Below are positions 6,072 to 64,000 of a DNA stretch of 64,000 nt, piece by piece. The stretch covers positions 37,848,999-37,912,998 of the forward strand of contig OZ007575.1 of the NCBI GenBank assembly GCA_963931925.1, in the 5' to 3' direction. The DNA is from Onchidella celtica. Lineage: Eukaryota; Mollusca; Gastropoda; Systellommatophora; Onchidiidae. A model generated the notes under the pieces. It was not told the origin of the DNA. It did not search any database and was given only the letters and a program-made list of their open reading frames with translations. Positions within the stretch are counted from its first letter, which is position 1. Each line of letters opens with the position of its first letter. A program made the position numbers and the translations under genes.

Positions 6072-6895
6072 GGCCTTTAACTTCCTGACATCTTCTAGAA
6101 CCCCCGGCCACACCGAATTCATGACTCTCGGCCTTTAACTTCCTGACATCTTCTAGAACCCCAGCCACACCGAGTTCATGACTCTCGGCCTTTAACTTCC
6201 TGACATCTTCTAGAACCCCCGGCCACACCGAGTTCATGACTCTCGGCCTTTAACTTCCTGACATCTTCTAGAACCCCCGTGGCCACACCGAGTTCATGAC
6301 TCTCGGCCTTTAACTTCCTGACATCTTCTAGAACCCCCGGCCACACCGAGTTCATGACTCTCGGCCTTTAACTTCCTGACATCTTCTAGAACCCCCGTGG
6401 CCACACCGAGTTCATGACTCTCGGCCTTTAACTTCCTGACATCTTCTAGAACCCCCGTGGCCACACCGAGTTCATGACTCTCGGCCTTTAACTTCCTGAC
6501 ATCTTCTAGAACCCCCGGCCACACCGAGTTCATGACTCTCGGCCTTTAACTTCCTGACATCTTCTAGAACCCCCGTGGCCACACCGAGTTCATGACTCTC
6601 GGCCTTTAACTTCCTGACATCTTCTAGAACCCCCGTGGCCACACCGAGTTCATGACTCTCGGCCTTTAACTTCCTGACATCTTCTAGAACCCCAGCCACA
6701 CCGAGTTCATGACTCTCGGCCTTTAACTTCCTGACATCTTCTAGAACCCCCGTGGCCACACCGAGTTCATGACTCTCGGCCTTTAACTTCCTGACATCTT
6801 CTAGAACCCCAGCCACACCGAGTTCATGACTCTCGGCCTTTAACTTCCTGACATCTTCTAGAACCCCCGGCCACACCGAGTTCATGACTATCGGT
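6072..6895. repeat. 57/58/60-bp minisatellite, 14 copies
   Basis: Units start GGCCTTTAACTTCCTGACAT at 6072, 6130, 6187, 6245, 6305, 6363, 6423, 6483, 6541, 6601, 6661, 6718, 6778 and 6835. Length differs only at one junction: CCCCAGCC gives 57 bp, CCCCCGGCC 58 and CCCCCGTGGCC 60. Runs of 57- and 60-bp units stay in frame on the minus strand (VLEDVRKLKAESHELGVA repeats), while each 58-bp unit shifts the frame. No flanking exon, start context or single continuous frame supports a protein. Confidence 0.93.
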
Positions 6896-9062: not shown

Positions 9063-10761
9063 CCGGTTATTGCCCCTGTTTGTGTGTTTCTATACTTGTT
9101 GGTTTGTTTGTTTTAAATCAGGACGCAAAAAAAAAAAAAAAACCCAGCTGTTTAACAGATTATTTTGTTTGCCCTTTATTTGATAAGGTTGCACTGTGAA
9201 ATGCTTACACATTACCAATATAATGGATTTTAAAAAGACGCGGTTTATGTCCTCGCTCGTGCTACGAAAGGAAAGTCAGAATCTCCGAGTGAAATCTTAA
9301 TGAGATTTTTTTTTTTTTTGTTGCTTTAAAAATTATGCCATTTCTAAGACTCATGTGACATTTTCAAATATCTTAATTGCTGAATGTCTCGGGACAAAAT
9401 ATTTTTGGCTGTATAATAATTGTTGTTTTTCAACGGTTGGTTCTGTTCGAATTTTAAACAACAAAAAAAAAATCCCCTGTGGCATAATGGGTTCTATTTA
9501 AAGATATGATTGCTGGGCATATAAATGCGTATGGCACTTTTTATTGTGTGTGAACTATTTTTTTAAAGTATTTCCTGCATCTCTTCGATCCAAGTCTCTT
9601 CAAAAATTGATCTCAAAATACACCGTAAGGACGAAGTTTTCAGCGTTTCAAAGGTTAAAGATATCCAGGCATGTGGATATTGAAAAGGTTAACTCTGTCA
9701 AAAGCAAAAATTCTTTTTTTTTCAATACTTTAATATTGTTTATGCGTTTGTTGACATATATTTTATGCATTTCTGTTAATGAGAAATCCAGTGAAGCCAA
9801 ACATTACTTGGTGTATTTATTATGAGCATCTTTCTATCTAGGCCATGAAATAATTTTTCGGTTTTGGTTTTAATTTTTGTTCTGTTTGTTTGGCTGGAAT
9901 TCCGGACCTGGCCAGTGTTAATTGTGTGGCCGGCTATTTTTTTTTTTTTTTTGGTGTCTCGCATTACCCAAGGAGAATGTGATGTCGGAATACGATAAGG
10001 TTAAGTGAGATTTGATATGGCGAGCTGAATTTGTTAAGAAGAGGAAATGTTTTGATAAAATCGATTTAATTGTTATATACAGGAGCTGATACAGTGTACA
10101 AGGGTATACATTTCAATATTGTAGGATAATTGTTGTTTAAAATGAACATAGGTGGTTGGCAGGTGTTTCCAATATTATGTCGTGTCTACATTTGTCCTAT
10201 CATTAATTTACATGACTTATCTGTTTGTCCTTTTCTCTGACTTCTTAAAATAGTTTTTTATAAGCAGTTAATTCAAATGCACATAATCTATTGACGGGTG
10301 TTTGCCATATTGTTGTATACGACATTTTGTCGATTTTGAGGTTTTGTCTTGAAAGTGGTTTTATTAATCCGTATTTTATTATGTGTAAGTGTCATATGGG
10401 TATATATTTCTCGGCGCTTTTTTATGCAAGTTTCCATTTTGAAGCGTATTGAACAAAACCCTGATTTTAAACAACTCTTCATACTTTCAATCCTCAATTT
10501 CTCGAAAAGGCAAAACGATACACAAAGGTACCCTTGTGCATTAGTAAGTGATGTTCTTGCGCAATCAGCTGTTTATTGTATGAAGAGTTGGCAAAAACAC
10601 TGGTAATATTACTTTCTTTAACAAGTTCTCATATTCTCATGTCATTGCAACTTCAAAGCGCACCATTTGACTTCTCATGTCCATGTTTTATATTCTTCCA
10701 TGCTTGTAGGTCGAATCCACGTGATGCCACAAATTATTTTTGTTTTGATTTTTCGATACTA
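9063..10761. other. Stretch without recognised features
   Basis: AT-rich DNA with several A or T homopolymers. The 60-95-codon frames here have no recognisable domain. Confidence 0.4.
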
Positions 10762-11110
10762 AAAATGGCCGGTGGATCAGCTGATTAGTGTAACTTCGAG
10801 ATATGTCGAAGAGGTTAAAATGAATGCCAGTTACATTGTAGTTGATTGCTATGGCAGAGATGGAAAGGATGGATCCAAGCTGGTCAGATTCCCTACCATC
10901 CGCGTAAACAAGAGAAAGGAAGTGAAAGAACTGACAGAACGTCTTACATTTAACATCTACACACGTGCAATTGTTTACTATAGTGGCCTACTTTTAGCTC
11001 GCCGCCTGTAGGTTCGTGGCGCATCCCGTGCCTTGCGAGGCAAATCAGCCAACGAATCAAAATCAATGCCACAGTCGCCATGGTGATTCGTGGGTCCGAC
11101 ACTAAAGATG
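10762..11110 (+). repeat. Duplicated THAP first-exon block, copy A
   Basis: Matches 54705-55075 over about 350 bp in the same orientation, with several small differences. Shared landmarks include GGATCAGCTGAT, GTGTAACTTCGAGAT, GATGGATCCAAGCTGGTCAG and AACGAATCAAAATCAATG. The homology covers sequence upstream of the start codon, the exon and downstream sequence. This points to a genomic rather than mRNA-derived duplication. The two copies are about 44 kb apart. Confidence 0.85.
10820..10946 (+). pseudogene. THAP-domain N-terminal exon, likely inactive
   Basis: From the ATG at 10820 the frame reads MNASYIVVDCYGRDGKDG, then SKLVRFPTIRV and KEVKELTERL. The THAP zinc finger (a C2CH DNA-binding domain) begins with Cys near residue 5 and Cys near residue 10, followed by an RFP-type motif near residues 23-25. 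Here residue 5 is Tyr while Cys10 and the RFP are kept, so one zinc ligand is lost. The sister copy at 54764 has both cysteines. No tryptophan or second half of the domain follows before the frame becomes nonspecific, as expected if only a first exon is present. The THAP assignment rests on spacing and the RFP motif. Confidence 0.6.
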
Positions 11111-12121
11111 GTGGACAGCGCATTCTACCCATATTTTGCTGACTGCCGTGTAACAAGTAATTGCACAATTGCACATGTGAGTAATCATTATATTTCAGCC
11201 TGCACCCACTGTTAAGGTAAGGATAACCCTTCATGTAAGGACTTTTTTTTTGCTTTCTCCATCTGAATAGAACTACGATAGTAAAAAATAATCACAATTC
11301 AAGTCATTTCCCAGGCAACCTTCAAGGAAATCTCATGTATATTCGGCCAGTAATTGCGTAAAACACTGGGAAGCAACGATTTGTCAACACAACTCTCATT
11401 TGAGGATTCGCGGTCGACGTGTTGTTCATCAGATATCGCGTCTGTTTCTGTTCAAGGTTCCCCTCTACGACCGGTGTCTATGAATTCGAGAAAACCTCCC
11501 TTATCTACCATGGTTATAAAAATATTTCGTGTTTTCTCATTACAACCATTAAAATATCGCATAGAATTGGGTCGCTGTCGGCGGTCGCTGGGGTTGAATC
11601 CAGAACATTCTATTACTTCATGCTGATCTGTTTCTTCCAAATGATTTGTGAGAATGTGTTTTACGCACGCTGAAACATTGAACATCCTGACGAAATACGA
11701 GATTGGTTTTTTTTTAAACCTTTAAAAGTTAAAACTGAAAAAAAAAAAAAAAAGCTGATCTTCCTGGCAAATATTATTACTAACTGCCATCCCAAATCCT
11801 TTCTGGTGAAAGGTTGTGTTGCTGTTTTTAATTATTATTTGTAAACTGATCTCCATGCCAACGTTTCGTTTATTTGTACAAACACCAAAGAAGAGTATAG
11901 AAGAATCTAATTATGCCACCCCAATGTTTACTGTATCAACCTTTGCCAGTTTTCTTGTTATCATTTTTTATGCAAGTTTTCTGCTTTTTTCTTCTTTTGT
12001 TATTGTTATTCTTACGGTTTGACATTTCCATTTTTCTAAATTCATAACTAGTTTGTCTCTTGGTATGCTGGTACAGTACAGTAATCCAAAGTCTAATTTC
12101 CAATTTGGCTTTGGCAAAACA
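11111..12121. other. Stretch without recognised features
   Basis: Mixed AT-rich sequence with a poly-A run near 11740. Three overlapping 77-90-codon frames lie at 11354-11685 on both strands. None has a supporting motif. Confidence 0.4.
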
Positions 12122-42476: not shown

Positions 42477-43299
42477 TTAACAGCACATACATGGTACACA
42501 TATCTTACGTATTATTTACATAAACATATCACAACTCAATAACTCAATAACAAGCATACATGAAGTGACGTGGTAAAGAACCTTAGTGGAAAAAATACAC
42601 AGAAATGGAGATATCATAATTTTTTTATAGTTCGTTTTTTTCACTTGACAAAGGCGAAAGCCGAAAATTTGTGTATTTCCTGTCTTCTCTTTAGTTTGCT
42701 TTGTATTGTTTGGGTTTTATTTCTCACGCGGGGCATTGCAACATACAACCTTTTCTTTTTGCCCAATTTTGACAGAAATGGAGAGCACTGCAACTCCGTG
42801 CTGTCGCCTCCGAGGGGGGCGGAAGGGGGGGGGGGGGGTTTGGGGTTGGTCTGTCTGATGGTTCAAGAACTTATTTTGCAACACAGGTGTATATATAATT
42901 TTGCTTAAAAGTTCTGAGCTATTCCGTGACGAAATTCAAGAGGAAAATCTTTGCTTCTAAGAAAATCAAAACCAATGTCTCGCGGAGATAACTGTCACGC
43001 AGCCATGGTTTAAATTTTCTCTCCTAAACAAAAATTGTTACTTTGGCGTACTTAAATATTGAGGGAGAGAAAATGCTCTTCTGACTCATTGCTGTAAGCC
43101 CCTTTGAGCGGTTCGTCCCCCCAAAAATGGCCAATACAAATGGCACATGAAAATCACAAGGAGATAATTTAATATTAAATTGCACAGCTAGATGTACCGG
43201 GCATTATCTGAGATAAACCTGTCAACCCACCCTTCTATTTCTTTCTCTTTGGGCTAGAAAACTTCCCATATTCTATAATTATACAGTCTTACCAAAGAT
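42477..43299. other. Stretch without recognised genes
   Basis: Contains a G12 run at about 42826-42838; a G18-type run at about 42131-42151 lies upstream, before the LINE-tail remnant. No gene recognised. Confidence 0.4.
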
Positions 43300-43665
43300 A
43301 CTAGAAACGATAAGATGGGACTTTTTCGCACAACCAAAAAACCCGTGCACACAATTTACGCGCTGATCGGGTCCAGGGCCCGTGGCGCATAGTATGAAAA
43401 GAAAGATTGATGTAGTGGTAAATTCAATTTATGACGCAAAATTGTGACCGTGCTACTGCCACTTAAAAAAAAAAGAATAGCCAGAGTTTTCCCATAGCGA
43501 TTGAGGTTAATTCCACAATAATTGTGTGACGTCAATCAATCAAGGCCTAAAGCGATAGCTGAACAGTGAATAAATTTCAGTATTTTCCCCATTTGGCTTT
43601 GTAAAATACGGCACTTTTTCATGACTTCTGCGGGTTTGCCTCGTTAGGTGGGGGTGCGAAAACTG
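43300..43665 (+). repeat. Dispersed repeat D, copy 1
   Basis: Matches 63645-64000 in the same orientation: GATACTAGAAACGATAAGAT, GTGCACACAATTTACGCGCT, GGCGCATAGTATGAAAAGAA, GTGCTACTGC, AATAGCCAGAGTTTTC, GCGATTGAGGTTA, AGGCCTAAAGCGATAGCTGA and TTTTTCATGACTTC. No ORF or termini identified. Confidence 0.85.
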
Positions 43666-54258: not shown

Positions 54259-54704
54259 CCTCTCTTTCCCATTCAGCTCAATAACCAATCAGCTTAAGAA
54301 GCCCTATCGCACATCACGTACTTTCCTCCAACAAAGGAGGAAGCTCCACCAACAACATATTTATTTGTCTGTCTGATATGCCACAGATGATCTGCGTGTA
54401 TGCTCGTATTATTCTCATAACACCCTACTCCTTCCCCAGCGTTCTCTCTTGTCTTTCTCTGCCTCCACGCGTTTGGTTAGTGGCCGCTTGTGGTAGGATC
54501 TCCTTCTGCCCCATTATTCTGCTATATTCTGTTTATCGTCTTGCTTTTCCTTAGCATATTGTGACCGTTATGGGGTCGACATGCTGTCTCCAAATTCAGA
54601 CTCAAAGTCTGCCTCCACATCTCCCCTTTCATCACGATGAATATTCCGATAGGTAGACTGCGCATGACGTCGCAGGGTATGTTGGTTTTGAACTTCTTAC
54701 ACTA

Positions 54705-55075
54705 AAGATGGCCGTTGGATCAGCTGATGAGTGTAACTTCGAGATTATGTCCAAGCGGTTAAAATGCCTGCTGGTTGCATTGCAGTTGACTGTTGTGACA
54801 GGAGTGGAAAGGATGGATCCAAGCTGGTCAGATTCCCTACCATCCGTGTAAACAAGGGGAAGGAAGTGAAAGAATTGACCGAACGTCTTCCATGTGCATG
54901 TACACACGTGCCATTGTTTACTGTAGCGAACTACTTTTCGCTCGCCGCCGGTTGGTTCGCGACGCCTCAAGTGCTCGCAGTGCAAATCAGCTAACGAATC
55001 AAAATCAATGTCACAATCGCCATGGTGAAGCCTGGGTCCTTATACTAAACATGGCGTATAAGCGAATTCTACCTA
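54705..55075 (+). repeat. Duplicated THAP first-exon block, copy B
   Basis: Same-orientation homologue of 10762-11110. It includes GATGGCCGTTGGATCAGCTG upstream and ATCGCCATGGTGA downstream. Confidence 0.85.
54764..54892 (+). CDS. THAP-domain N-terminal exon, partial
   Basis: The frame from ATG 54764 reads MPAGCIAVDCCDRSGKDG, then SKLVRFPTIRVNK and KEVKELTERLP. Cys5, Cys10 and the RFP at 23-25 match the spacing of the start of THAP zinc-finger domains, which bind DNA and occur in regulators and P-element-like transposases. The conserved Trp and the later Cys and His are absent, as expected if the exon ends near residue 40. No downstream exon is recognised within the window. It could be the first exon of a gene extending beyond what I can see, or a duplicated relic. 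The 10820 copy has lost Cys5. Confidence 0.5.
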
Positions 55076-57503: not shown

Positions 57504-60031
57504 TTATTATTATTTTCAATTTTCACTAATTATATCTTTGTTGTTGTGGGAATAATGCGATTAGTCTGTGTCATTCTGAGGAAATAAACAGAAAACATGT
57601 TCGCTATTGTTTAAGGCTTCATTAAGTACGAATCCAAATTGGCGAAATAATGAACCCCTTGTTTCTCTGTGAACACAGGGCCGGTGTGAGATTAAATTTG
57701 GACTCTCATATGATTTTGTCCCCCGGTCCAAATGATTATAATACGACAAGAGCAATCCGGTGTTTCTCAACCTGTCCTGTCCTATGCGGGATGCCCCACC
57801 ATAATCAGACAACGTTAGTATACAATATTCAAAAAAAGAGTAAGAACATATTTATACACTCAGTATGTACACATTAAAGGGCAATTTTAATTAAAACTTT
57901 ATTACAAGTTTTATTCACTTGTTTCTTACGCAAATGGGAGCCTTGCCCTTGACTTTGGCCACAGATTTGTTTGATTCGAGGGACAAACTCCGTCAATTTT
58001 AGCCTTCAAGCATCACTAAGAAAAATCCCTGCCCTTTAGTATGAAGTCACGAAGAGCTCGTCTTGTAAGTTTTACATTATAGATTGTATAGCACATTGCG
58101 CCAAAGATCGAATTACGTGCTCGTAGCTTTTCCTCATGGCTCAGGTGCGCAGTGAGAATGGCCGAATTGCTACCACACCCAAGGTTCATGGATACCTTTA
58201 TCAGGAATTACCTGAGTGCATCAGACCGTTAACTGATGATGATGCTACCTTTATAAGCGGCCATGTTGATGAAGCTGTCGATGTTTTCTCAAGCTCTGTT
58301 GTCGCAGCTGATGTTGGCATGTTTGGTTTTTTGTTTTGTTATGAAGGGCTGCGTTTTCAGTATATATCACGAGTTCTTTTTTACATATAAGTGACGCAAG
58401 ATTTGAGTGGATGATTATCGGCACAGGCTTACGAATAACCAGATCAGAGTGAAGTCACAAAAGTGTTCACCTTCGCCATTTTATTTTGCCAGACGAGTCG
58501 TCACCACCAAAGACGCCGACTAACATTTCTTCTTTTACGTACGTTTCACTGCTTACTCCATTAAAAGATTTTTTTTTCAAAGGTTGACCCCCATTAGTTG
58601 TATAATACTGCAGTGAGTGCACTCGGTTCGCGACAGAATTATCCTAGTCTGTGGTAAACGTCTGAAATTCAGACAAAAACTAAATGGCTCCCCTGGCTTT
58701 GCCGTCGTTATGCTGAAGTCCCCTTGGTTGGTCTGGTTCAGGTGGTTGTTGTTGTCAGGGCATCTTGGTATTGTACATAGTAAGCTGCAGCTGAGCAGGG
58801 AACATGACTCAGTATTTTCTCTAACTCTGTTCCGCTTTGTAATTAGACTGTCTTAACAAGAGCACCTGGTTAATTGTTAGTCTGTGAATTGCGGTGACTG
58901 CATTTTTAGTTTAAATTGCACATCGTTCTCCTGTCATTATGCATTGTTGTCTCCCCGCCCCCCACCCCCACATCCGCAGGACATAGCAGCAAATATTTTC
59001 CCTAAAGCACTCTAAAGCACTCCAAATAAAATAATGAAATGTCCCGCACATGAAGATAAGCAGTTGAATTTCCCAGCTGTTGATGTAGATTTTTTTTGAC
59101 ATAAACAAGTGCAAGATTGTTCTTATATCTGTTTCTGCTGTTTATGTAACTCCCAGTTTGTTTGTTGTTTTTTTAATCTCGTATGTTAGAATATAATGAG
59201 ACATTCCGCGCTGATTAACTTTAAAATAACAATTTGCAAAAATAATAGATAATTTTCTATGCTGTTTTTTTTTTTTCTTAAAGAATTTCATGTTTGAAGA
59301 ATAATGAGAGCAATGCAACATGTTCTTGCCATCCTTGTAAAAGTTACACTGATCTGGAGCATGGAGTAAAGGAGAGGCAGAAAGACAAGTGCAGAGATGG
59401 AGAGAGAAATAGAGAGGAGTGATGAACTTTTTAGTTGTTGCTGTTGTTATTGTTGTTGTTGGTGGTGGCGGTGGTGGTGGTCGCGCTGCTGTTACTGCTG
59501 CTGTTGCTGCTTAAACCACGCGTGGTTGGAGAGATTCAGCAAATTTCAACAGTTTCAGATCTTATTTGGGTGTTCTGAAGAATCAGTCTGCAAGATCTAT
59601 GACAGTATGAGGTATTTTATGATAAGATGATAGTCACCATTCAATTATGTGAATATTTTGGATAACCGGTTTGTACGAATGCGGACGTCACTGTAAATAA
59701 ATCCCGAAACTAAGCGTGATCTTAGCGAAGGTAAATAATTATGACAAACTGGTGCCATTTGTGTCGAAATGACCCAAACTTACTGAAATCTTATCTTAGC
59801 TCCAGGTAAGATAACAGTCAAAACCTTTTTTTTACTCCTGCTACATCACATTTACCATAAGGTTAAGATTGCATCAAGACACTGTCCTGTTCAAGAGAGC
59901 ACTACTGTGTCGCCAGAGAGTGCAGTGTTTTTAGATCATTATTTTAGGAGGTTCGCTGGCCCCAGGCATGTACACCTCACTTTTCTTGTTTTTACTTGTC
60001 TTGTTGTGCTAGGGATTCCTTGTTTTTGTTA
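57504..60031. other. Stretch without recognised genes
   Basis: Contains TTG/GGT/GCT triplet runs at 59430-59512. The 84-codon plus frame at 58136-58390 has protein-like composition in its first half but no identifiable domain and is left uncalled. Confidence 0.35.
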
Positions 60032-60185
60032 AGAATTTTGCCCGGGCGGTGGCCTGTTCGGCCTGCTCTTTTCGATTTCCAACTGCCAAGGTATCTTTAA
60101 AGTGTGCAACGTGCACACGGGCCCTCCGAATTTTTCGTCCTTATCCGAGAAGGCTAGGTGCTCGATCCTACCAATCATAGGATCA
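60032..60185 (-). mobile_element. SINE family S, copy d, 3' part
   Basis: The minus strand contains TGATCCTATGATTGGTAGG, TCTCGGATAAGGACGAAAA, GGGCCCGTGTGCACGTTGC, CCTTGGCAGTTGGAAATCG and the end GGGCAAAATTCTTAA. It is the downstream half of a SINE whose head is at 63394-63460, the two being separated by the LINE. Confidence 0.88.
60172..60185. repeat. Target-site duplication of the LINE, left copy
   Basis: CAATCATAGGATCA, identical to 63394-63407. Confidence 0.88.
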
Positions 60186-60200
60186 TCATCATTGCCTTTC

Positions 60201-63182
60201 TCACCCTGGATCAGGGTATAGGCCACCAACAAACACTTTCCATCCCTCTCTATCATGGGCCAGCCTCTTTACATTATTCCAAGTCTTTCCGCTTCGTTGC
60301 ACATCATTTTCTCTGGCTCTTCTCCACGTTCCGCGCGGCCTTCCTCTTGATCTCTTGCCCTGGGGATTCCAATCCAATACCTTCTTCGTGATGCTGTTTC
60401 CTGGCCTCCTGAGAGTGTGGCCGATCCATCTCCATCGCCTCCTACCAATTTCCTCTCTGACTGGGCTCTGTCTTGTTCTTTTCCATACAATTTCATTGCT
60501 GACCTTGTCTGTCCATCTGATCTTAAGTAGCTTCCTCAAACATCTGTTGATGAAAACTTGGATTCTCTTTATGCAGGCCTGGGACGCATTCCAAGTCTCA
60601 CATCCATACAACAGGACTGACTTCACGTTCGAGTTGAATATCCTCAGCTTTGTTTTTAGAGATATATCCTTGGTTCTCCAAATCTTGCTTAAGGACGTGA
60701 AAGCTGCCTGTGCCTTTCCAATTCGTGCTTTGACTTCTGCCTCTGTTCCTCCCTTATTGTCAATGATACTACCAAGATAGCAGAAGGACTCTACTTCTTC
60801 CAGTGGTTGATCTCCTACTCTGACTTGTGCGCTTGGGGGTGCAACAATTTTTAGGACCTTCGACTTCGCAGGATGTATCCTCAATCCAATAGATTCTGAA
60901 ATTTTGTTTAGAGCTGTAGTCTTTGCTTGCATCTGGTCGTGTGTGTGCGACAATAGTGCCAAGTCATCTGCAAAATCTAGATCGTCCAGCTGTGTCCATG
61001 GGGTCCATTGTATGCCATTTCTTCCTCCACTGGTGGTTTCTTTCATAAGCCAATCCATCACCAGGACAAACAGAAATGGGGACAGCAAACAACCCTGCCT
61101 AACACCAGTCTTGATATCAAAGCTGTCAGTAAGCTCGCCATCGTGTACGACTCTGCAACTTGTCCCCTCGTACATGCTCTTGATAAGGTTCACCATCTTC
61201 TCTGGGATTCCATAATGTCTCAATATTCTCCACAGTGTTTCTCTATCGATGCTATCAAAGGCCTTCTCGTAGTCAAGGAAGTTCACTATCAGTTGGGAGT
61301 TCCACTCTAGCGACTGCTCTACTATGATTCTCAGCGTGGCGATCTGGTCGGTGGTTGATCGATTACTCCTGAAACCAGCTTGCTCCTCACGAAGTTTTGG
61401 GTCTGTTGCATTCTGTATTCGCTTGAGAATAATCCGGTTGAAAACCTTTCCTGGGATGGAGAGAAGTGTGATTCCTCTGTAGTTACTACAATTGCTGAGG
61501 TCCCCTTTTTTTGGAAGCTTCACGAGGTGTCCTTCCTTCCAGTCCTTTGGAAACTTGCCTCCGATCCAAATCCTCGAGAATAGTGAGTGCAGACCCTCTA
61601 CAGCCCCAGCAGCATCTGCCTTCAGCGCCTCTGGTGGGATCTGATCTGGTCCAGCTGCCTTGCCTCGATTTAACTGCTTTATGGCATCATTAATCTCTGC
61701 TTTAGTCGGAGGGTCGCAACTGATCGGTAAATCATTTCTTGCTGGTAGAATGTCGGGTGGGTTGCTTGGTGGAGGTCTGTTCAAGAGGCTGTTAAAATGT
61801 TCTATCCATCTTTTTGCCTGAGCTTCCTTTCCAAAAATAGCCTTCCTGTTGTAATCCTTGACAGGAACTTCAGGTTTTCCATATTTTCCAGCAAGAGTCT
61901 TTGTAGTCTGGTAGAGGATCCTCATGTGTCCTCCTGTTGCTGCCTTCTCTGCTTTCTCTGCTAACATTCCTATGAACTCCTCTTTGTCTTTTTTAATTGA
62001 TTTTTTGACCTCTTTAGCTGATGCTCGGTACTCTTCCTGGTTACCAACTCTTGAGCTTCTTGTACGACTTGCATTTACCTGTTCTTTTAGGTCTCTTCTT
62101 ATCCTTATCAAGTCCAGTGATTTTTGACTGATCCATTCCTTGTGTTCCACTTTCTTTTCCCCAAGAACATCCTGACATGTCGATGTAAATACTCCTTTTA
62201 CCTTAGCCCAGTGAGTCTCCAAATCTACTGTCTCTTCGAGGTCAACAAGGGGTTTGAATCTATTCCTCAGTGTCAGCTGGAACTCTTCCTTCTTGTCTCC
62301 ATCCAGAAGGCTCACTTGAAACTTTCTCCTCTTTGTTCCTGCCCTGGTACCTTGTTTCTTGAGGCGGAGTTTGAGTCTTGCCAGCAGCATGTGATGGTCA
62401 GACCCAACATCAGCTCCTCTCTGTACTATGACATCCTCCAGTGAGCGTCTGAATCGTCGGGTGATGCAAAAGTGGTCAATCTGGTTTTCAGTTACTCCAT
62501 CCGGTGAAATCCAAGTGGCCTTATGGAGCCTCTTGTGTGGGAATACTGAACCTCCAATCACATAGCTGTTAAATGCGCAGAAACTTGCAAACCGCTCTCC
62601 ATTCTCGTTCATTTGTCCCAAACCATTGCACCCCATAATGTCCTCATACCCTGTATTGTCCTGTCCTATCTTGGCATTGGCGTCTCCCATTATAATGTTC
62701 ACATCTTTTCTTGGCAATGTGTCAACTATTTCCTGAAGCTGGTTGTAGAAATCGTCCTTGTCCTCATCGGTTGCTTCATTTGTTGGGGCGTATATCTGCA
62801 CAATGTTCATGTTGATGTTCTTGTTCTTTGTAGTAAATGATGCCAATATAATTCTCCTTCCATAGGGTTCCCATCCCCTCAGTGACCTCTGGGCGTGCTT
62901 GCTCAAGATGATCGCTACTCCTTCTGTATGCTTTTTGTCCTCCCTTCCAGAATACAAAATCTTTTCCCCAGAATTAAGTTGTTTCAGTCCGGACTGTATC
63001 CAGCGGGTCTCGCTAACTCCAAGTATGTGCAGTCTGTATCGCCTCATCTCCATTGTAACCTGGGCACTCTTTCCTGCTTCATACATGGAGCGGACATTCC
63101 ACGACGCAATCCGGAGTGACTTGTTTGATGAAGGAGCAGTCAGGCCAGTGGAGTCCTTTCGGCTTTGTCCATTGTCCTTCAT
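60201..63182 (-). CDS. LINE ORF: apurinic endonuclease plus reverse transcriptase
   Basis: This protein nicks target DNA and reverse-transcribes element RNA at the nick. Residues are counted from codon 63218. An APE-type endonuclease spans about 36-280, with WNVRSM (Asn41), the catalytic Glu70 in GVSETRW, YAPTNEATD at about 143, GDAN (Asp179), QIDHF and SDHH at about 273. The reverse transcriptase spans about 505-830, with PKKGD at about 569, YRGITLL at 580, QAGFRSNRSTTDQ at 613, FLDYEKAFD (Asp649), GVRQGCLLSPFLF at 705 and FADD (Asp751/752). The basic C-terminus has YGCETW at about 871, RRRWRWIGHTLRRP and RSRGRPRGTWRR. There is no internal stop or frameshift. The first ATG is at 63182, residue 13 of this count; the frame stays open upstream to 63335 with no ATG, so a non-AUG start cannot be excluded. 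The stop is TGA at 60201-60203. Confidence 0.93.
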   Translation of the reverse strand: MKDNGQSRKDSTGLTAPSSNKSLRIASWNVRSMYEAGKSAQVTMEMRRYRLHILGVSETRWIQSGLKQLNSGEKILYSGREDKKHTEGVAIILSKHAQRSLRGWEPYGRRIILASFTTKNKNINMNIVQIYAPTNEATDEDKDDFYNQLQEIVDTLPRKDVNIIMGDANAKIGQDNTGYEDIMGCNGLGQMNENGERFASFCAFNSYVIGGSVFPHKRLHKATWISPDGVTENQIDHFCITRRFRRSLEDVIVQRGADVGSDHHMLLARLKLRLKKQGTRAGTKRRKFQVSLLDGDKKEEFQLTLRNRFKPLVDLEETVDLETHWAKVKGVFTSTCQDVLGEKKVEHKEWISQKSLDLIRIRRDLKEQVNASRTRSSRVGNQEEYRASAKEVKKSIKKDKEEFIGMLAEKAEKAATGGHMRILYQTTKTLAGKYGKPEVPVKDYNRKAIFGKEAQAKRWIEHFNSLLNRPPPSNPPDILPARNDLPISCDPPTKAEINDAIKQLNRGKAAGPDQIPPEALKADAAGAVEGLHSLFSRIWIGGKFPKDWKEGHLVKLPKKGDLSNCSNYRGITLLSIPGKVFNRIILKRIQNATDPKLREEQAGFRSNRSTTDQIATLRIIVEQSLEWNSQLIVNFLDYEKAFDSIDRETLWRILRHYGIPEKMVNLIKSMYEGTSCRVVHDGELTDSFDIKTGVRQGCLLSPFLFVLVMDWLMKETTSGGRNGIQWTPWTQLDDLDFADDLALLSHTHDQMQAKTTALNKISESIGLRIHPAKSKVLKIVAPPSAQVRVGDQPLEEVESFCYLGSIIDNKGGTEAEVKARIGKAQAAFTSLSKIWRTKDISLKTKLRIFNSNVKSVLLYGCETWNASQACIKRIQVFINRCLRKLLKIRWTDKVSNEIVWKRTRQSPVREEIGRRRWRWIGHTLRRPGNSITKKVLDWNPQGKRSRGRPRGTWRRARENDVQRSGKTWNNVKRLAHDREGWKVFVGGLYPDPG

Positions 63183-63393
63183 TGAATCTACAGGTGCAGA
63201 TGCTCCCCCTTCTCCCAAGATAAAAGACTGATTTAAAGTATTTGCTTGTGTTTCTGTAACTGGTTTATTTTTACAGGGTGGGTAGTTGGCCCACCGCCAA
63301 CTGGCTCTTCTCGGGAGACCAGGACCTTTGCACCTTTAGTCGTCTCTTACGACACGCAGTATCACGTCAGATGTATTCTTTGCTGTCCCTCTT
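63183..63393 (-). other. 5' leader of the LINE
   Basis: Lies between the right target duplication and the first ATG. The reading frame of the ORF continues upstream through it to a stop at 63336-63338. An internal promoter would be expected here, but no motif is distinctive enough to call. Confidence 0.6.
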
Positions 63394-63460
63394 CAATCAT
63401 AGGATCAGGGACAGGGAAATATGACAAAAAGCACTCTGCCTCTAGGCCACCGTGTCCCCT
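63394..63460 (-). mobile_element. SINE family S, copy d, head
   Basis: On the minus strand: GGGGACACGGTGGCCTAGAG (A-box region), then directly TTTTTGTCATATTTCCCTGT and CCCTGATCCTATGATTG. Compared with copy a, about 70 bp including the B box are missing, so this SINE was already defective or lost the segment later. The first 14 bp (63394-63407) are the right target-duplication copy. Confidence 0.85.
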
Positions 63461-63644
63461 GTGTCCAACGGTGTCCAGAGAGTGCAATGATTCGCAATAA
63501 CAATAAAGAGTGAAACAGAGCAAGCACACTGCCTGGTGTATTAGTGTGATGCATGATAATTAGGCGGCCAGCCACCAGTTTGGCCCCTGCACCAGCCTTG
63601 GTCTGTTTCATCCCTAAGGATGAAAATGCACTGACTGAAATTTG
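63461..63644. other. Short unassigned spacer
   Basis: Nothing recognised between the SINE head and dispersed repeat D. Confidence 0.4.
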
Positions 63645-64000
63645 TGTTAGCAAAAATACTAGAAACGACAAGATGAGACACTGTCTTCTTCGCACCACTT
63701 TAAAAAGTCGTGCACACAATTTGCGCGCTGATCGGGGGCGGGGCCCATGGCGCATAGTATGAAAAGAATGCTTGATATAATGGTAAATTTACGATACAAA
63801 ATTGTGACAGTGCTACTGCGACTACAAAAAAAAATAAAGGAAAAATAGCCAGAGTTTTCAAACTGCGATTGAGGTTACAATTCCACAATAAGTGACGTCA
63901 GTTAAGGCCTAATGGGATAGCTGAACAGTGGACAAAATTCAATATTTTCCCTATCACTTTTCATGACTTCCGCGCGTTTGCCACGAGGGGGGCAGTGCGA
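63645..64000 (+). repeat. Dispersed repeat D, copy 2 (runs off the window)
   Basis: Collinear with 43300-43665: ATACTAGAAACGACAAGATG, GTGCACACAATTTGCGCGCT, TGGCGCATAGTATGAAAAGA, TAGCCAGAGTTTTC, GGCCTAATGGGATAGCTGAA and TTTTCATGACTTC. It reaches the window edge, so its right end is unknown. Confidence 0.83.

Follow-up and report, generated by a model that had tools for sequence, protein, structure and literature searches.

The locus described here raises the question of how an RTE-like long interspersed nuclear element (LINE) came to lie within a short interspersed nuclear element (SINE), and from what RNA it was copied. It is located in a 64,000-nucleotide (nt) stretch of the genome of the gastropod mollusc Onchidella celtica (GenBank assembly GCA_963931925.1, contig OZ007575.1, positions 37,848,999 to 37,912,998 of the forward strand), referred to below as the window and numbered from its first letter. 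Very probably, target-primed reverse transcription placed an RTE-type element in a SINE of putative transfer RNA (tRNA) type that is older than it; the family of the element is very young, has been active recently and probably still is. The element RNA probably has two alternative 5' ends, and the window copy would have been made from the short RNA.

The junctions define the insertion. The 14-nt sequence CAATCATAGGATCA occurs in the window at 60172–60185 and 63394–63407 and nowhere else, as an exact direct repeat that can be extended at neither end. The two copies, which are the inner target-site duplications at the 3' and 5' ends of the LINE, respectively, exactly flank an insert of 3,208 nt (60186–63393) in minus-strand orientation. 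An initial annotation, made from the sequence alone, had described a perfect 14-bp target duplication and a SINE restored by removal of the unit, and both descriptions hold. With the insert taken out, the flanks align across the junction to three SINE copies elsewhere in the window (approximately 14.05–14.32, 22.62–22.98 and 23.76–24.07 kb), and a 35-nt junction-spanning pattern with two ambiguous positions has 649 uninterrupted matches (a raw count, not inspected singly) in the searched genome of 1.14 Gb and 43 contigs, against none for the reversed control. The young RTE-like LINE is genuinely nested in the SINE, with its ends resolved to the base, and such nesting is in itself ordinary.

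The host SINE, which is putatively of tRNA type and older than the LINE, is larger than the extent of 60032–63460 first assigned to it. Homology to the copy at 22.6 kb continues to 59930, and a second direct repeat of 12 bp, CCAGAGAGTGCA, encloses SINE plus LINE at 59913–59924 (the right copy of an outer target-site duplication) and 63475–63486 (the left copy), which together place the SINE at approximately 59925–63474. Its 3' part occupies 59925–60171 (minus strand, aligned to the copies near 14, 22.6 and 23.8 kb) and its 5' part 63408–63474 (minus strand, aligned to window copies). In a random control, 44 of 5,000 pairs of stretches of equal size had a 12-mer in common (pairs less than 400 nt apart were skipped, yet are included in the 5,000), so that the outer repeat counts as good evidence, though it falls short of overwhelming. 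Relative to the copies near 23.8 and 14.0 kb, the host copy lacks approximately 45–66 nt of its tRNA-like head through an internal deletion, and the B-box-like part of the head that is present in other window copies is gone; those copies carry motifs that resemble A and B boxes. ARAGORN finds no tRNA in the window, and the joined SINE has no match to the LINE interior at an E-value of 1e-3. The flanks of one other insertion (L020) among the 46 family copies described below resemble the same SINE by eye at a different site, which argues that the SINE is not a fixed target of the LINE.

By its anatomy, the insert matches the RTE group, bearing out the original assignment of an RTE-like LINE nested in a SINE. 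The uninterrupted frame described at the outset is open over 1,044 codons of the minus strand, from 63335 to the TGA at 60201–60203, with its first ATG at 63182; from this ATG the open reading frame (ORF; 60201–63182, TGA included) encodes 993 amino acids. The longest open frame in 500 first-order random sequences of equal length is 296 codons. Approximately 4.6% of single substitutions in the ORF would create a stop codon, and at 2% neutral divergence the chance of finding none is 0.066. In a 1005-residue reading of the frame, Pfam places an apurinic-type endonuclease (Exo_endo_phos, E-value 4.5e-8 over the whole profile) at residues 38–275 (62394–63107, minus strand), a reverse transcriptase (RVT_1, E-value 8.4e-36) at residues 569–817 (60768–61514, minus strand) and DUF6451 at residues 839–871. 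The claim that all catalytic residues are present stands for the reverse transcriptase, which was aligned to the R2 and L1 ORF2p structures with its FADD motif included; the endonuclease has its full-profile match, and its motifs WN, SETRW, GDAN and SDH are presumably the catalytic ones. Exodeoxyribonuclease III models match the endonuclease domain weakly, below their cut-offs, and a search of solved structures with the endonuclease part returns just two spurious matches. Pfam gives no RNase H match up to an E-value of 1, and no relatives are found in viral contigs, bacterial and archaeal genomes, or phages.

At the other side of the stop codon, the 3' untranslated region (UTR) and tail together measure only 15 nt (60186–60200, minus strand) and end in ATGATGA, an (ATG)n repeat, as the annotation had it; other scored copies have a similar 3' end in which the number of ATG units varies. 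A short-repeat 3' end belongs to the definition of RTE elements given in a passage of PMC1291365. The 3'-terminal 40 nt (60186–60225, minus strand) are predicted to form a hairpin with the stop codon inside, which is possibly a recognition site for the reverse transcriptase; one in 500 mononucleotide shuffles folds as well, and a 75-nt stretch is unremarkable against dinucleotide shuffles (76 of 200 fold as well). The 5' UTR comprises 211 nt (63183–63393, minus strand) and, by comparison with other copies, is without the first 29–30 nt of the longer ones. The description of the LINE as intact is accordingly right for the ORF and not for the 5' end, where longer copies carry approximately 30 nt more.

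The family to which the window copy belongs was sampled as the best 46 protein-search matches (L001, the window copy, to L046) of 33,191 first-look candidates, a sample that is skewed to young and intact copies. All 46 align over 1005 of 1005 amino acids with 99–100% identity, and 45 have no internal stop. Over 3,018 nt, their mean pairwise difference is 0.51% (range 0–27 differences), and four of the 1,035 pairs are identical. The other copies more than 98% identical that the annotation proposed to look for exist, and its candidate active lineage is borne out as one of very recent activity: as judged from these sequences, it is strongly supported that the lineage is very young and recently active, and the family is probably still active today. 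The ratio of nonsynonymous to synonymous polymorphism (pN/pS) across copies is 0.09 or 0.24, and is not used as evidence of selection because the copies were chosen by protein score.

Counts over the whole genome give the scale of the family. The 5' core AAGAGGG pattern has 862 exact matches, 591 of which are preceded by the inner 15 nt of a longer 5' end (controls, 0), and a 29-nt 3'-end pattern has 3,879 (control, 0). On one contig (C1), all 18 cores listed up to 35.86 Mb pair with a same-strand 3' end among the first 100 listed; by hand count, these 5'-complete elements account for 18 of the 100 3' ends, 16 are near full length, two are internally deleted (328 and 361 nt), and in 12 the span from the outer end of one pattern to that of the other is exactly 3,210 nt. 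In L092 (C1:19493066) and the copy at C1:32795518–32795878, the 5' core is present, only approximately 330–360 nt lie between the patterns and most of the ORF is gone (L092 was read, the other judged by positions). Since their lengths differ, these two are probably separate template jumps and not a family.

The insertion sites share a signature. With the first base of the duplication as +1 in element sense, and positions upstream in the same loci as control, A or T occupies both –12 and –11 in 46 of 46 insertions (211 of 569 control positions, 37%), a pyrimidine is found at –1 in 45 of 46 (272 of 569 in the control), and A is at +1 in 41 of 46. Among 44 copies, the –1 base is C in 25, T in 18 and G in one. 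Duplications are 10–14 bp long in all 44 copies with the 5' core, and 11–12 bp in the two that are cut further. The window insertion fits, with TTT at –12 to –10 and C at –1. The four duplications that begin with T (L001, L018, L028 and L036) all begin TG and continue the ATG tail, as expected if the RNA tail pairs at the nicked end. Parts of PMC13295347 describe for Bov-B and plant RTEs a split signature with a T stretch approximately 10 nt upstream and a duplication whose first base, A or T, depends on the 3' repeat; the signature found here appears to be a variant of it, with a mixed A/T block in place of T.

At the 5' end, the finding that the initial annotation had named as a refutation, other copies extending beyond 63393 at high identity, was indeed made. 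The window copy starts at AAGAGGG, or at GAAGAGGG if the G common with the duplication is counted. Of the 46 copies, 25 reach approximately 30 nt further upstream (27–33, mostly 30), to (C)GCCCGTGCAGATGCGGGGCCCTCTTGCAG, and at least 15 inner nt of this extension are exact at the 591 places in the genome; the window copy is thus slightly shortened, and its failure to reach the longest 5' end of the family goes with a start that recurs in 16 of the 46. The 25 long copies comprise 23 with the exact inner stretch and two with one base changed (L013 and L038), and the 16 short ones comprise 14 called by script together with L042 and L045, where one or two additional bases are present. As for the remaining five, L025 and L026 skip a hairpin, L016 has a partial 5' end that starts at GCGGGG, and L012 and L015 are cut deeper into the 5' UTR. 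Two discrete starts recur: long copies begin at (C)GCCCGTG, and short ones at (G)AAGAGGG, 29–30 nt downstream.

Copies on C1 repeat this pattern. Twenty cores were taken in listing order from the 271 (862 minus 591) that have no exact inner long end. Judged by eye, with the duplication unchecked, 18 of them are short, and two are long with a base change; 17 of the 18 short copies have a G just before the start. Where the inner long end is present (20 places taken), the start is (C)GCCCGTG in 18 and lies near ATGCGGGG in L074 and L082. The short start is located in the loop of a predicted hairpin, CCCTCTT-GCAG-AAGAGGG, with a 7-bp stem, and the predicted folding energy of the first 48 nt is –19.1 kcal/mol, compared with a shuffle mean of –11.7 (11 of 1,000 mononucleotide shuffles are as good). 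L025 and L026, at different places, have the long start and a common 18-nt skip of the second 5' hairpin between GGG repeats, which may be a recurrent jump or mark a small sublineage. Two other readings of the short start were set aside. A reading of CTCTTGCAG as a splice acceptor is rejected, because what immediately precedes the start in short copies is the duplication and not an upstream exon; a downstream promoter motif does not fit in register and is not claimed. The 5' motif has no match in viral contigs, and four motif strings have none in paper texts.

These observations can be assembled into one sequence of events. The endonuclease would nick the bottom strand opposite Y|A (here C|T), approximately 11 nt downstream of the AT block, whereupon the RNA tail would pair with the freed end, in keeping with duplications that often continue the ATG repeat, and reverse transcription would continue to the 5' end of the RNA. 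Identical ORFs carry different starts (the short L010 and the long L011 form one such pair, the short L029 and the long L031 another), from which it follows that the short start arises repeatedly, and from which we infer that the element RNA has two 5' ends, produced either by a second transcription start or by a cut in the loop of the 5' hairpin (TTGCA/GAA). The window copy would have been made from the short RNA.

Several points weigh against this account. The low divergence and intactness of the 46 copies are biased, the copies being the best protein matches. Six further copies were chosen blind to protein (in listing order among exact inner-long-end matches on C1, with already-fetched wholes skipped), and just one of them has no defect. 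Most of the sequence is missing from another, a third carries an in-frame deletion but no stop codon, a fourth has one stop codon, a fifth is frameshifted, and the sixth combines frameshifts with a stop codon; the five with long matches are 98.7–99.9% identical, in the matched part, to the nearest of the 46. The window duplication begins with T and not with the usual A. According to a section of PMC13295347, the target sequence beside Bov-B copies is rarely similar to their 3' repeat, an argument against tail pairing being generally required. Finally, Rfam identifies no known ribozyme in the long 5' end: no ribozyme like that of hepatitis delta virus (HDV) is found in the window copy (E-value up to 5), in the window (gathering thresholds) or in the long 5' end of L004 (E-value up to 10), the window copy and the L004 end giving weak hits to unrelated families only. 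A scan of the element for double pseudoknots, which is weak as it had no positive control, returns nothing, as do 100 shuffles.

The short 5' end could instead be ordinary 5' truncation, with the reverse transcriptase stopping early when it meets the stable 5' hairpin, a reading that we take seriously while holding it less likely than a second RNA 5' end. The location of the short start in the loop of the predicted 7-bp hairpin, and a fold of the first 48 nt that beats 989 of the 1,000 mononucleotide shuffles, are what such stalling would call for, as are the skipping of a hairpin in L025 and L026 and the partial ends of L016, L074 and L082, which lie near the loop or the 3' arm of the first hairpin. 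However, a stalled enzyme should stop at the base of the stem, where none of the 46 copies ends; short copies keep the whole 3' arm and start at the loop, with a precision of nearly one nucleotide, as seen in the G that precedes 17 of the 18 sampled on C1. It is this stem-base argument that makes a second RNA 5' end the likelier of the two. A different explanation, that short copies descend from a source that lost the first 29–30 nt and form a separate sublineage, would account for the constancy of the short start, and a short copy could pass on its own form if it had a downstream promoter. In addition, four of the 16 short copies have a short copy nearer to them than any long one, or show the distance pattern reversed (L039 and L043 nearer; L027, L029/L030, L035 and L046 tied or near-tied). 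Yet the short copies do not cluster, their mean distance being 16.1 compared with 15.2 in random sets (a fraction of 0.859 of 2,000 sets is as small or smaller); L003, L010, L027, L029, L030 and L042 each have a long copy at 0–1 differences, and the window copy has its nearest long copies (L002 and L007) at 6 differences and its nearest short copy at 16. We regard such a sublineage as quite improbable.

Least credible of all, to the point of being negligible, is a chance repeat of CAATCATAGGATCA around an element placed by recombination or by an assembly error. Repeated 14-mers 2–4.5 kb apart do occur in the window, where 39 pass a complexity filter that CAATCATAGGATCA also passes; the 20 of them that were printed all come from duplicated sequence near 49.6–53.6 kb. 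Against this explanation, CAATCATAGGATCA lies exactly at both ends of the element, the structure recurs in 45 other insertions whose duplications differ, and removal of the insert leaves an unbroken SINE. Within the preferred reading, of an element RNA with two 5' ends, we offer one specific form quite tentatively, and doubt it more than we credit it: a compact 5' device, in which two adjacent hairpins each expose TGCAGA in or beside the loop, might yield RNAs with two fixed 5' ends, by alternative start or by cutting at TGCA/GA, leaving approximately 28–35% of 5'-complete daughters without the first 29–30 nt. If true, this device would be a mechanism for RTE RNA 5' ends unlike the HDV-like ribozymes reported so far.

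Four other features of the window are recorded here. A dispersed repeat at 43286–43592 and 63644–63954, the latter to the right of the nested element and outside the SINE, has 78% identity over approximately 320 nt, and a repeat pair at 10707–11129 and 54650–55073 has 81% identity over 426 nt. A minisatellite at 6072–6894 consists of 14 copies of approximately 60-bp units with 96% matches, with a minus-strand frame of 142 codons across much of the array. In a 50-bp tandem array of 17 copies at 1785–2652, a minus-strand frame is open over 384 codons, probably as an effect of the unit and not as a gene.

With hundreds of its copies complete at the 5' end, and with hardly any difference among the best of these, the family is a good natural record of RTE integration. 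Dozens of clean junctions give the target signature of the endonuclease, apparently a variant of that published for Bov-B and for RTEs of plants, and the origin of the 5' ends of RTE RNA becomes testable on the two sharply defined 5' ends. A specialist might wish to pursue the target signature, which is clear, and the second 5' end, which is sharp.

Among described elements, the mollusc RTE-BovB, canonically approximately 3.2 kb in an excerpt of PMC10294476, is like the window element in length. SR3 of Schistosoma mansoni, as presented in part of PMC1291365, is of the RTE clade, with 3,211 bp (3,208 here), an apparently intact copy and duplications of 10–12 bp, and is unlike the window element in its 922-residue ORF and its 177-bp 3' UTR ending in a TAAG repeat. 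The lepidopteran HmRTE-e01/BmRTE, in the sections of PMC2887409 devoted to it, has one endonuclease and reverse transcriptase ORF of 990 amino acids (993 here) and, like the window element, a target-site duplication, of 20 bp compared with 10–14 bp here; its 5' UTR is 276 nt (211 here), and its 14-nt 3' UTR (15 nt here) has a simple repeat, written (CTT)2CT in the main text but (GAA)2GA in a legend, where the window element has (ATG)n. The two-start pattern is not mentioned in those sections. Processing of RNA 5' ends by HDV-like ribozymes is known for R2 and is mentioned, in a portion of PMC3774820, for R2, R4, L1 and RTE, whereas the present element has no HDV-like match and its short end falls within the loop of a simple hairpin. 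In the Tn-TA signature of Bov-B, as set out in part of PMC13295347, a block is located approximately 10 nt upstream, the duplication usually begins with A and its first base is tied to the 3' repeat, as is the case here; the Bov-B block is T-rich and its –1 base typically T, whereas the O. celtica family has mixed A/T centred on –12 and –11 and either C or T at –1.

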